From the IMG/VR virus record IMGVR_UViG_3300022921_000124, positions 1-22,218 of that record: a stretch of 22,218 nucleotides of DNA; one strand, written 5' to 3'. Positions within the stretch are counted from its first letter, which is position 1. Each line of letters begins with the position of its first letter. The position numbers and the translations under genes are program-made. This document shows positions 887 through 5,206 of the stretch, in pieces. A model generated the notes under the pieces. The model was not told where the DNA came from and searched no databases. It was given only the letters and a program-made list of their open reading frames with translations. Source of the DNA: a virus.

Positions 887-1639
887 TTATTTTCCTACGT
901 TCCAAAACAGAGCACCTTTCTTAGCATATTTTTTCATAACAGGCCACGCCTTTGCGTCATAAGTAGGTACAGACGGAAAAGGTGGTTTGTCTTTATCTTT
1001 AACTTCTTGTGTAAACTTATAATCTGACATATACAATTTAGCACGTCCTACTTCATTCTGTTTCATTCTATGACCAACTGATACTACATTAACATCTTTA
1101 TCTGGAAATGCCATTTGCAATCCTCTTGTTAATGTACCACTTGATCCTACTGACCAAATTTCACTAATACTAATATTATACTCTATTTCTATATTTTTTG
1201 CAAGGTCCCTTATATCTTCAAATACTCTTTTTTCTTCTAATCCTAGTGGCAAAATACGTCTCCTTTTTGGATCCTCGTAAAAATACTCTCTTGCCCTTGC
1301 TTTTGTAACTTGTAACATACCATCGGGTACCCAACGTATATCAGCGCCATAGTCTAATGCTTGTTGTTGGTATGGGTGTAGATTGTCTAATGATCTCTTT
1401 GCCATAAAGAATACTGCCTTTTTACCGTATGCTTTTGCTTGTAGTGTTAATGATAGTTGAGCATATCCATTTGCTGGACATCCACCATATACAAATTCTT
1501 CGGCACCTTCTTCTATTTCTTCTCTAATTAATCTATCTACAAATCTTCTTTTTGATCCACCTTCTAATAGATCATCACGTACTATATGAAAACCCTCGTG
1601 TTCTTCTATGACTAATTTAGGAAAATCGTATGGTTTCAT
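887..1639 (-). CDS. Fold-type-II PLP-dependent enzyme (ACC deaminase / D-cysteine desulfhydrase-like)
   Basis: The 250 residues show the core signatures of the tryptophan-synthase-beta (fold type II) PLP superfamily. GGSKRRFVDRLI at 27-38 carries the candidate Schiff-base lysine K30. YGGCPANGYAQL at 51-62 matches the GGxQSNxxR loop that holds the cofactor ring. GSSGTL at 165-170 is the phosphate-binding loop. In the ACC deaminase/D-cysteine desulfhydrase branch the loop normally reads QSN; here the serine position is A56 while N57 is kept, so the chemistry may differ from these enzymes. At 250 residues it is clearly shorter than the usual 320-340. The C-terminus (YDAKAWPVM...LFWNVGK) looks intact, so it is compact rather than truncated. 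The ATG overlaps the upstream stop (ATGA). Substrate unknown: amino-acid metabolism, sulfur release or base modification are all possible. The fold is well supported, the reaction is not. Confidence 0.75.
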   Translation of the reverse strand: MKPYDFPKLVIEEHEGFHIVRDDLLEGGSKRRFVDRLIREEIEEGAEEFVYGGCPANGYAQLSLTLQAKAYGKKAVFFMAKRSLDNLHPYQQQALDYGADIRWVPDGMLQVTKARAREYFYEDPKRRRILPLGLEEKRVFEDIRDLAKNIEIEYNISISEIWSVGSSGTLTRGLQMAFPDKDVNVVSVGHRMKQNEVGRAKLYMSDYKFTQEVKDKDKPPFPSVPTYDAKAWPVMKKYAKKGALFWNVGK

Positions 1640-2420: not shown

Positions 2421-4136
2421 CTATGTTTGTTCTAATCGTGTAAAGTTTTGATACTTTTCAAATTTAATCATATTGGTAAATTTATCAAACATTATATCGC
2501 CTTTATGTGATATGATAAAAATGTTTTCTTTTGTCATAGTTTTTATAATCTTAAAAAAGTCATCTGTGCCTTGACCATCTAAACTGCTATCAAAGATTTC
2601 ATCTAATACTAACAAGTTTGTATTGACACTATTTTTCATTTTAGCAATCTGTCGCCAAGTAAATAATAAAGCAAGGTCTATTCTTAACTTTTCACCCTCA
2701 CTAAAACTGTTGTAATTAAAAGTATCTCTATGACGACTTTTAACTGTTTCATTAAATTCTTCATCTAATTGAAATGATATAAAGAAGTCCATAGATTGTA
2801 AATATTGATTTATAAGTGTATTCATAATAGGTAAATACTTTTTAATAATTTTAGTTTTAGCACCTTTTTCTGATAATATTTCTCTTACTGTATCAACGTA
2901 AGTTTTTTCTTCACTAATTTTTGTTAATTCTGTTTGTGTATCTAATAGTTGTTGTGCTAGACTATCTAATTCTTCTTGTATTTTATTACTATCTTCTTTT
3001 TTATTTTCTAACAATACTATTTCATTGTGCAAATTATCGCTAAATCTTTTCATCTCAACAATAGAAGTATTTAATTTTGATATTTCTATATTTAAATCGG
3101 TTATTTTTTTAGATATAGAATTAAACTCTTTTAGTTTTGTTTCTGTTTGTACTATTTCTTCTACTAGTTTTTTCATTCCATCATTTAAAGTTACTATTTT
3201 ACCTTTTTCAAAAGCACGTTTTTCACCTCTAAATTCAGGTTCTAATGGTTGTGTACAGGTTGGGCAAGAATCGTTTTCTTCAAAAAACCTTAAACTTCTT
3301 TCGTGTGTTTTTAAATTTGTTTCAATTTTAGTTTCTAACTTAGATAATTCTTTTAATTTTTTTTCAACTTTTTCTTTATCTTTTATATCATCATTATATT
3401 TTTTAAAGTCATTATCTAAATGTTGTATTTTTTGTAAATAGGTTTTTTTATCATTTTCTATTTTATCAATTTGATCTTGTTTTATTTTTTTATCATCAAC
3501 ATTTCTGTTTTTAATCTCATTAAAATGTTTACTTTCTAATTCATATTTTGCTTGTATTAAATCTGCATTATGTTTTACTTCTACTATTTTTTTATTTAAA
3601 TTTGATTGTTCTTCTCTTAGCATCCAATCCATATGTGAAAAAACTTTAATGTCTAATATTTCTTCAACTGCTTCTTTTCTATAACGAGATTTCATTTTCA
3701 TAAATGGTTCATAAGAAGAAGAACCAAGTATAACAACCTGAACAAATGATCTATAACTTAATTTCATTATATTACGTTCTAAAACTTTTTGATAATCAAC
3801 AGTAGAAGCATTTTGATTTACAAGTTCATCATTACAATAAATTTCAAAAATATTAGGTTTAATACCTCGTATAACTTTATATTGTTTTGTGCCAACTGAA
3901 AAATCTATTTCAACTAAAGTATCGCCGTTATTAATAGTGTTTACTATTTGTTCTTTTTTAATAATTCTAAATGGTCGATTAAACAAAACAAAAGTAATAG
4001 CGTCAAGTAAAGTAGATTTACCTGAACCGTTTTTACCTATAATTAAGGTTGTATTAGATTTTGTTAAGTCAACTTCAATAAACTGATTACCAGTAGATAA
4101 AAAGTTTTTCCATTTTATTTTTTTAAATATAATCAT
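2421..4136 (-). CDS. 46: Recombination endonuclease subunit gp46 (Rad50-like)
   Basis: A Rad50/SbcC-type ATPase, partner of gp47 in resecting DNA ends for recombination-dependent replication and host DNA breakdown. Visible elements in order: Walker A GKNGSGKS (34-41); a long charged coiled coil from about 170 to 285; the zinc hook CPTC (291-294); a second coiled-coil arm to about 420; ABC signature FSEGEK (478-483); Walker B LLVLDE (508-513) followed by the D-loop SSLD (517-520); and the switch histidine in IISHK (H544). At 571 residues it matches T4 gp46 (560). Its ATG overlaps the gp47 stop by 4 bases (ATGA), as expected for a stoichiometric complex. Confidence 0.96.
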   Translation of the reverse strand: MIIFKKIKWKNFLSTGNQFIEVDLTKSNTTLIIGKNGSGKSTLLDAITFVLFNRPFRIIKKEQIVNTINNGDTLVEIDFSVGTKQYKVIRGIKPNIFEIYCNDELVNQNASTVDYQKVLERNIMKLSYRSFVQVVILGSSSYEPFMKMKSRYRKEAVEEILDIKVFSHMDWMLREEQSNLNKKIVEVKHNADLIQAKYELESKHFNEIKNRNVDDKKIKQDQIDKIENDKKTYLQKIQHLDNDFKKYNDDIKDKEKVEKKLKELSKLETKIETNLKTHERSLRFFEENDSCPTCTQPLEPEFRGEKRAFEKGKIVTLNDGMKKLVEEIVQTETKLKEFNSISKKITDLNIEISKLNTSIVEMKRFSDNLHNEIVLLENKKEDSNKIQEELDSLAQQLLDTQTELTKISEEKTYVDTVREILSEKGAKTKIIKKYLPIMNTLINQYLQSMDFFISFQLDEEFNETVKSRHRDTFNYNSFSEGEKLRIDLALLFTWRQIAKMKNSVNTNLLVLDEIFDSSLDGQGTDDFFKIIKTMTKENIFIISHKGDIMFDKFTNMIKFEKYQNFTRLEQT

Positions 4137-5206
4137 TTTGAATAATGGTCGTTTGCTTCAATATAAGTTTCTTTAATAAACTCTTTTAACTTTTGTTTGT
4201 TTAAATCTGTTTGTATTTGATCTACGTAATTATTTAAAAACGTAATGGTATCTTCTCCTTGATCTAATATATCTTCTCTTACACTAGTAAACATATCGCT
4301 TTGTACATCTTCAATAATGTTAACCTCGTGTACATTCATTTTATTTTGTAAACAATCTACTAGTTTATTAAACATATCTTCATTTGTTTTATTAGAAACA
4401 AATAACTTTATAAAACAATTTTCATATGGTGTTAAATCAAAGTTAGTATAATCTGTTTTTTTATCATCATAAATTATTTTTTTAAAGATTGTAAGTGGAT
4501 TAGATATTCTTTCTAATTCTCGTGTTTCTGTGTCAAATACGTGAAACCCTTTAGGACAATTATAGTCTGACCACATAATTTCATATTGAGTTCCTAGATA
4601 ATAAATATGTCCGTCATCTGATTTTTTATGAAAGTGACCAGAAAATACTTTTTCAAATCTTCTTAATTGTTCTTTTTCTAAACCGTGATCGTTCATAACA
4701 CCATTGTGCATTTCAAATCCTTTTACTTCTAAATGACCAAAACAAATATCAGCGGTAGAGTGATCTATTGCGTATATTGAATCTTCGTAATTGTCGTCAC
4801 ATATCCAAGGTAAAAATAACATACGACAACCACCTATTTCTACTTCTTTAGGACCTGTGTATATCCAAGGTTCGTTTACACCATCAAAAGTAGTAACAAG
4901 TTGTTCTATTGAATTAACTTCATTTGTGTTTTTGTAATAAGTGTCGTGGTTGCCTAATATAATATGTGTATCTATTTTTAACTCCCACAATCGTTTCCAA
5001 AACTTCTTTTGAAAATTATGCGCTGTATTAAAATTAATAAACTTTCTTCTATCAACAACATCACCTAAATGAATAAGAGTATCAATCTTGTTCTCAATAA
5101 GATATGGAAAAAATATCTCGTCATAGAAACGATTATGATAACTTATAAATGCAGGTGAGTCGTTACGGCATCCGAAGTGTGTATCATTCAGTAATGCTAT
5201 TTTCAT
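4133..5206 (-). CDS. 47: Recombination endonuclease subunit gp47 (Mre11-like)
   Basis: A calcineurin-type metallophosphoesterase related to Mre11/SbcD. The two-metal site is clear: DTH at 8-10, GDVVDRR at 48-54, GNHD at 85-88, GHLE at 157-160 and SGHFH at 189-193. At 357 residues it is close to T4 gp47 (339), and its N-terminus MKIALLNDTHFG aligns with the T4 start, supporting this ATG. It overlaps the end of gp55 by 23 bases and gp46 by 4 bases. With gp46 it forms the nuclease that generates 3' single strands for UvsX/UvsY-driven strand invasion; UvsY and UvsW are encoded just upstream. No strong Shine-Dalgarno is visible, so translation is probably coupled to gp55. Confidence 0.96.
   Translation of the reverse strand: MKIALLNDTHFGCRNDSPAFISYHNRFYDEIFFPYLIENKIDTLIHLGDVVDRRKFINFNTAHNFQKKFWKRLWELKIDTHIILGNHDTYYKNTNEVNSIEQLVTTFDGVNEPWIYTGPKEVEIGGCRMLFLPWICDDNYEDSIYAIDHSTADICFGHLEVKGFEMHNGVMNDHGLEKEQLRRFEKVFSGHFHKKSDDGHIYYLGTQYEIMWSDYNCPKGFHVFDTETRELERISNPLTIFKKIIYDDKKTDYTNFDLTPYENCFIKLFVSNKTNEDMFNKLVDCLQNKMNVHEVNIIEDVQSDMFTSVREDILDQGEDTITFLNNYVDQIQTDLNKQKLKEFIKETYIEANDHYSK

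Follow-up and report, generated by a model that had tools for sequence, protein, structure and literature searches.

What a fold-type-II PLP enzyme does for a virus is the question raised by a 22,218-base fragment of a marine virus (IMG/VR IMGVR_UViG_3300022921_000124), the whole of which we refer to as the window. The enzyme is encoded by an open frame of 250 amino acids with an ATG start at positions 887–1639 on the minus strand. Its surroundings were described correctly by the original prediction, i.e., two small genes at 1636–1875 and 670–885 flank it, and a methyltransferase (MTase)-like gene that is cut by the window edge comes next (3–677), all on the minus strand. The same co-directional run includes a peptide deformylase gene (Pfam E 8.4e-38), the gene of a gp46-type nuclease subunit (PHROG 77) and a gene at 4133–5206 that looks gp47-like, judging only by the ORF list. 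The small upstream gene at 1636–1875 matches PHROG 8676, which has no assigned function, and a similar ORF also adjoins loci with a GNAT-like partner (L230, L271, see below), hence it is not specific for the PLP gene. For the small protein encoded at 670–885, between the PLP enzyme and the MTase, we found only a weak, sub-threshold match of residues 6–22 to the RNA-polymerase-binding region of SutA (SutA-RBD). It has a FL.[RK]GGK[VI].KL.PG motif in common with a small protein near 4354–4698 of the locus L220.

Our analyses confirmed that the protein has the fold-type-II PLP architecture. The PLP-binding lysine K30 in the GGSK motif (codon at 1550–1552), said at the outset to be retained, is a lysine in 62 of 62 aligned relatives. 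The phosphate-binding loop, also said to be kept, reads GSSGT (residues 165–169, positions 1133–1147), with S167 present in 57 and G168 in 61 of these 62 sequences. Structure prediction with AlphaFold gave a confident model (pLDDT 96.0, pTM 0.91), which superimposed on the ACC deaminase homologue 1j0a with Z 24.8 and rmsd 2.3 over 247 aligned residues and on the D-cysteine desulfhydrase 4d9f with Z 24.4; these two enzyme types are the nearest solved folds, with overall Z of 22–25. Pfam PALP gives no match with the window protein alone but does match its phage homologues above the curated cut-off, and we ascribe the miss to divergence rather than to absence of the fold. Nor is the observation due to chance, since 46 viral contigs encode close relatives and at least 510 stretches were confirmed by profile scan. 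On plasmids, no match to the Microcystis homologue was found at 1e-6.

A CPAN stretch in place of the QSN loop had been pointed out for this protein. Residues 54–57 (1469–1480) indeed read CPAN where ACC deaminase reads QSN; however, the change is a trait of the family and not of the window protein, because P55 and G58 are invariant while position 57 varies among the 62 relatives (T in 37, E in 11, N in 7 and Y in 3). The family thus carries PA[TNEY]G, whereas QSN is present in a true ACC deaminase that served as control (L188).

Which family this is becomes apparent from several comparisons. The window protein matches PHROG 7093 over residues 14–250 with E 2.6e-31, and this group is centred on the PLP enzyme of M6-like phages; the homologue from Bordetella phage CN2 matches the group with 521 bits. 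A tblastn search of 50,697 phage records with the CN2 protein yielded 69 matching records, which include Pseudomonas phage M6 and Sphaerotilus phage SN1. Profile alignment of the window family with the M6/CN2 PLP enzymes by hhalign covered the full length (224 columns) with a probability of 98.3 and E 1.3e-14. Both also have the C-terminal signature PFP..P.YD.KAW...FWN.G, which reads PPFPSVPTYDAKAW in the window protein (944–985) and APFPCNPFYDLKAW in M6 gp52, with Y227 and D228 found in 61 of the 62 relatives. A tree of 49 rows groups the window protein and its relatives with M6/CN2 in a clade of 40 rows (support 96/87), outside of which the true ACC deaminase and other fold-II enzymes fall. 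The tree has long branches, and these make the exact place of M6 less sure, although its join to the rest of the clade has support 92/79, and the label "thymidine context" of three rows (L065, L075, L077) rests on their likeness to L061 and L076. As a further candidate, the D-cysteate sulfo-lyase CuyA (NCBIfam NF052482) was rejected, the window protein reaching 12.1 bits against a curated cut-off of 450 bits. The original prediction had pointed to the branch of ACC deaminase and D-cysteine desulfhydrase; this was right with regard to the nearest solved fold but named the wrong family, and the phylogeny did not place the protein with ACC deaminase. On sequence grounds, we count it among the PLP enzymes that serve DNA hypermodification in phages, of the PHROG 7093 type.

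For this family, a place in DNA-modification cassettes has been described. According to the announcement of the SN1 genome (PMC9476957), the M6 cassette for thymidine modification includes this PLP-dependent enzyme. In the CN2 cassette, PF18748 identifies a 5-hmdU DNA kinase and PF18724 an amino acid:DNA transferase alongside the PLP gene, and a further protein has a weak match to radical-SAM enzymes. In work by Lee and co-workers from 2021, such PLP enzymes, M6 gp52 among them, are reported to decarboxylate amino acids that have first been attached to 5-hmdU in DNA.

The proposed partner of the window enzyme is an amino-MTase-fold protein, of which the window encodes the first 225 of 359 residues, all 225 being identical to a homologous protein from another locus (P0002, L004). 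Its motif I reads DPSMGYGGR, and its TSPPYF motif IV falls in the part of the gene outside the window; motif I and an SPPY-type motif IV have positions that are invariant in 30 of 30 sequences. The fold is that of a class I MTase (Z 16.7 to TrmN, 3tma). The top structural matches are RNA m2G methyltransferases, no carboxypropyl transferase is among the structural matches listed, and no sequence relative of the MTase profile was found in the PDB at 0.01. With 16.9, P0002 stays below the curated cut-off of 26.7 for PF01555, whereas a ParB-linked sister protein scores 51.5.

Physical linkage of PLP enzyme and MTase was observed in several forms. Two Erythrobacter phages, R6L and ZS04, encode a ParB-MTase that harbors the PLP domain as an insertion between motif I and SCPPY, and in Pseudanabaena phage Pam4 a divergent PLP domain occupies the same insertion point. 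Microcystis phage Mae-JY30 has the two as separate neighbors, the MTase gene being followed by the PLP gene, and in the marine relatives of the window locus the partner of the PLP gene is a TSPPYF MTase. Overall, our search of 165 PLP loci revealed an MTase in 127. A role in nucleic-acid modification together with the neighboring MTase, originally suggested as one option among others, is strongly supported by the fusion, by operon linkage and by kinship to hypermodification PLP enzymes, and the window gene very probably belongs to a DNA modification system of some kind. Near the Erythrobacter phage fusion, we also noted a gene annotated as PAPS reductase (L001:2392-3435).

In the other 38 PLP loci, no MTase was detected; 21 of them end less than 1 kb downstream of the PLP gene and another four within 3 kb (L086, L088, L132, L145). 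The remaining 13 are real misses with at least 3 kb of downstream sequence (L061, L065, L075, L076, L077, L080-L083, L105, L122, L148, L165); from these, the context was read for L061, L076 and L165 and more lightly for L080-L083, L105, L122 and L148. In L061 and L076, thymidylate synthase-like and deaminase-like genes lie next door, and CN2 is another such miss. L061 and L076 possibly represent a thymidine hypermodification route without recognized kinase or transferase families. Their PLP-family members are divergent and lie near large ORFs of unknown function (L061:3838-9007, L076:2405-9060).

Beside MTases of the window type, the PLP gene is exchanged for other partners. Among 80 such loci, the best 80 of 112 confirmed with the MTase as query and thus the clean figure for partner choice, 19 have a window-type PLP gene, 7 an M6-like PLP gene, 45 a GNAT-like ORF and 9 neither, while none has both; 8 of the 9 partnerless loci have less than 3 kb upstream. 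When all window-type MTase loci with at least 3 kb upstream are considered, the numbers are 97 window-type PLP, 6 M6-like PLP, 39 GNAT, 3 neither and again none with both, the count of 97 being inflated because most of these loci were fetched with the PLP query. The loci are not independent, as one contig may occur under two locus identifiers. In a tree of 52 window-type MTases in which many forks are weak, the partner labels need at least nine changes. The GNAT-like ORF of 140–150 amino acids that replaces the PLP gene (L265:4955-6020, L271, L254, L220, L217) is a weak assignment, with Pfam E of 0.006–0.02 under the cut-off. In several loci, a gene resembling Asp/Asn beta-hydroxylases lies just upstream of it (L265: PF05118, E 2.8e-10).

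One might ask whether the two enzymes act together at all. The MTase could be an ordinary N4-cytosine or N6-adenine methyltransferase, as its SPPY motif IV and the PF01555 matches would suggest, and the PLP enzyme could catalyze an independent step, e.g., on hypermodified thymidine. Related MTases often occur without a PLP gene, and because many R-type MTases (see below) lack a PLP gene in the flanks seen, these may simply methylate. Moreover, in a subgroup of loci the PLP gene adjoins a gene resembling thymidylate synthase and another with a weak match to kinases. However, insertion of the PLP domain within the MTase and the repeated swaps of one partner argue for a common substrate. In addition, neither an hmdU kinase nor an amino acid:DNA transferase nor a hydroxymethylase was recognized in the 22-kb window by ORF reading, with profiles run around the PLP gene. 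Since the window is a fragment, this is compatible with a 5-hmdU pathway elsewhere in the genome, which is possible. On balance, we consider two independent steps unlikely.

A second line of evidence comes from sister MTases that are linked to ParB. At 1e-20, 23 of 50,697 phage records contain a related ParB-linked MTase. An S-adenosylmethionine (SAM) decarboxylase gene overlaps the MTase gene in Pseudomonas phage ZRG1 as well as in Croceibacter phage P2559S. The ZRG1 decarboxylase scores 83.5 bits with PF02675 against a cut-off of 25 and contains ESH...HTYPE, which we take to be the self-cleavage motif of SAM decarboxylases. The P2559S decarboxylase has been shown to be functional, as an E. 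coli mutant lacking speD regained spermidine when supplied with it (PMC9992855). Among 80 viral ParB-MTase loci, the best of 590 when ranked by likeness to the ZRG1 protein and thereby favoring the SAM decarboxylase branch, 50 contain a SAM decarboxylase gene, in 48 cases immediately downstream; the two non-adjacent genes lie 2.8 kb (L310) and 0.8 kb (L343) away. Among the roughly one half of the 23 phage records that were inspected, Listeria phage B054, Enterococcus phage phiFL3A and HCTV-2 had neither partner nearby. SAM decarboxylase matches as such occur in 130 of 50,697 phage records, 122 of which are named Synechococcus, Cyanophage or Prochlorococcus; cyanophage speD is known for other reasons. 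The pairing of MTase and SAM decarboxylase genes is best understood if the MTase takes a 3-aminopropyl group from decarboxylated SAM. Such pairs are candidates for a separate DNA aminopropyltransferase system.

In Mycobacterium phage AlanGrant, the ParB-MTase gene overlaps yet another PLP gene (L272:1406-2275; PALP 2.5e-10). This gene, number 2 of the phage, encodes a PALP enzyme, and its annotation as nucleoside deaminase is likely wrong. Its relatives are found mostly in phages of Salmonella, Vibrio, Klebsiella, Escherichia and Dickeya. Such a distribution would fit the PLP enzyme of the ViI pathway, reported to be conserved among Ackermannviridae (PMC6336734); to judge by their host names, these phages presumably are members of that family.

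The donor site of the MTases differs with the partner gene. We surveyed motif I in 115 ParB-type loci, of which 30 have a PLP gene, 52 a SAM decarboxylase gene, 33 neither and none both; four of the 115 rows could not be placed. At position D+8 of motif I, all 27 placed PLP-linked MTases have arginine, whereas 51 of 52 SAM decarboxylase-linked MTases have F, L or M. Position D+5 shows the same split, with G in all 27 of the former and D in 51 of the 52 latter. The sole exception to the D..F type is L310 with its decarboxylase 2.8 kb away. The genes that overlap a SAM decarboxylase gene and encode D..F in motif I include those of ZRG1 (L275:2356-4201), P2559S (L356:2356-3997) and L276-L343. In window-type MTases, D+8 is R in every resolved sequence, whatever the partner. 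The signature is imperfectly tied to the partner, given that partnerless ParB-type loci have R at D+8 in 23 cases and K, F or T in nine. Furthermore, the motif I switch counts as about one event because it is confined to one clade with full support. The arginine at D+8 might hold the SAM carboxylate, and its loss together with the gain of an aspartate would suit a donor that lacks the carboxylate, i.e., decarboxylated SAM. Six ParB-MTases for which neither a SAM decarboxylase nor a PLP gene was found have K at D+8, with the motif GDTQKGL in L308, L309, L311, L313 and L330 and GDITKGY in L354; such K-type enzymes may use a third kind of donor. In L313, a 404-amino acid ORF with an SGGKD stretch lies right after this unusual ParB-MTase.

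From these sister systems, it could also be proposed that the PLP enzyme decarboxylates free SAM, as a functional stand-in for SAM decarboxylase, and that its MTase partner then transfers the aminopropyl group. PLP gene and SAM decarboxylase take the same role beside related ParB-MTases and were never found together in 115 loci, and the end product of this route would be identical. However, the PLP-linked MTases keep the G..R of most partnerless enzymes and are devoid of the D..F found with SAM decarboxylases. Hence, they look built for a donor that bears a carboxylate. Also, relatives of the PLP enzyme sit in cassettes where the amino acid is put onto DNA first. Decarboxylation of free SAM thus seems decidedly improbable to us.

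Our preferred reading is that the window gene encodes a decarboxylase acting on a DNA-bound amino acid in a phage base-hypermodification system, to which we give a probability of about one half. What the MTase-fold partner would transfer to an exocyclic nitrogen of the base is not a methyl group but the 3-amino-3-carboxypropyl arm of SAM. For RNA, transfer of this arm by enzymes with an MTase fold is known (TYW2). A base that carries a free alpha-amino acid is the kind of substrate on which the M6 PLP kin act, and the window gene is hence read as a decarboxylase. The PLP enzyme would bind the DNA-hung alpha-amino acid as external aldimine, displacing K30, and then remove the carboxylate to leave a positively charged 3-aminopropyl base. 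In the sister branch, SAM would first be decarboxylated by the phage SAM decarboxylase and the aminopropyl group be transferred afterward, yielding the same product. A GNAT protein could cap the amine instead. The SPPY motif by rule favors cytosine N4, and this might tentatively be taken as the target. Protection from host nucleases could be the purpose of the modification.

The PLP reaction itself cannot be read from sequence, as a variable loop takes the place of QSN. Fold-II PLP enzymes catalyze most of elimination, deamination, beta-replacement and racemization, and replacement of the QSN loop would leave room for any of these on a base-linked amino acid. In contrast, the characterized kin are reported to be decarboxylases, and the sister MTases, too, have a decarboxylase as their alternative partner, so that we see little prospect for such other chemistry. 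It is very improbable that the gene is metabolic cargo that helps the host as ACC deaminase, D-cysteine desulfhydrase or threonine dehydratase, which we reject on family and context even though the former two are the nearest solved folds and several records label homologues threonine dehydratase, because QSN is lost, the true ACC deaminase falls outside the clade and a DNA MTase is the regular company; the roles in sulfur or amino-nitrogen supply that had been considered originally likewise found no support.

Taken further, the loci could equally well make up a new class of DNA modification or not: in such a class, an MTase-fold enzyme would transfer the SAM arm or an aminopropyl group, and interchangeable finishing enzymes, i.e., PLP decarboxylase, GNAT protein or a prior SAM decarboxylase, would lead to 3-aminopropyl or N-acylated chains. 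A literature search covering titles and the openings of abstracts returned no published DNA modification by PLP enzyme and MTase, nor a transfer of the SAM arm to DNA. If the proposal is true, viruses would have a new way to disguise their DNA, which by the counts obtained here (at least 510 stretches) would be common in marine viruses and alphaproteobacterial genomes. It would also explain why a SAM decarboxylase lies next to a ParB-MTase in phages, and a transferase that modifies DNA with aminopropyl or carboxypropyl groups would become available as a tool.

Compared with known systems, the window protein is closest to the PLP enzyme of the M6 and SN1 cassettes (M6 gp52), with which it has family, lysine, C-terminal signature and DNA modification context in common. 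In contrast to M6 gp52, it is about 30 residues shorter, has a PA-type instead of an SK-type loop, and is paired with an amino-MTase-fold protein; near it in the window, neither a 5-hmdU kinase nor an amino acid:DNA transferase was recognized. The PLP enzymes of ViI-like phages (Ackermannviridae) also work in DNA hypermodification (PMC6336734), namely in the 5-(2-aminoethoxy)methyl-dU pathway; they act in the 5-hmdU route, however, and are only distant relatives. D-cysteine desulfhydrase and ACC deaminase have the fold, the GG[SN]K motif and the C-terminal Y-D/E in common with the window protein, which differs from them by lack of QSN, by its size (250 versus about 325 residues), by clade and by genomic company. 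The phage SAM decarboxylase beside the ParB-MTases of ZRG1 and P2559S fills the same partner role as the window PLP enzyme, yet it is an unrelated pyruvoyl enzyme and its MTases differ in motif I. Mom of phage Mu, of the GNAT type, is a known phage DNA modification enzyme, and beside window-type MTases a GNAT-like ORF does replace the PLP gene; this assignment is weak, and a search of the ORF for a match to the Mom family returned none. To our knowledge, the cationic phage bases 5-NedU, 5-NeOmdU and putrescinylthymine all come from 5-hydroxymethyluridine together with free amino acids or polyamines; a SAM-based route on an ordinary MTase scaffold, if our reading holds, would need only two genes.
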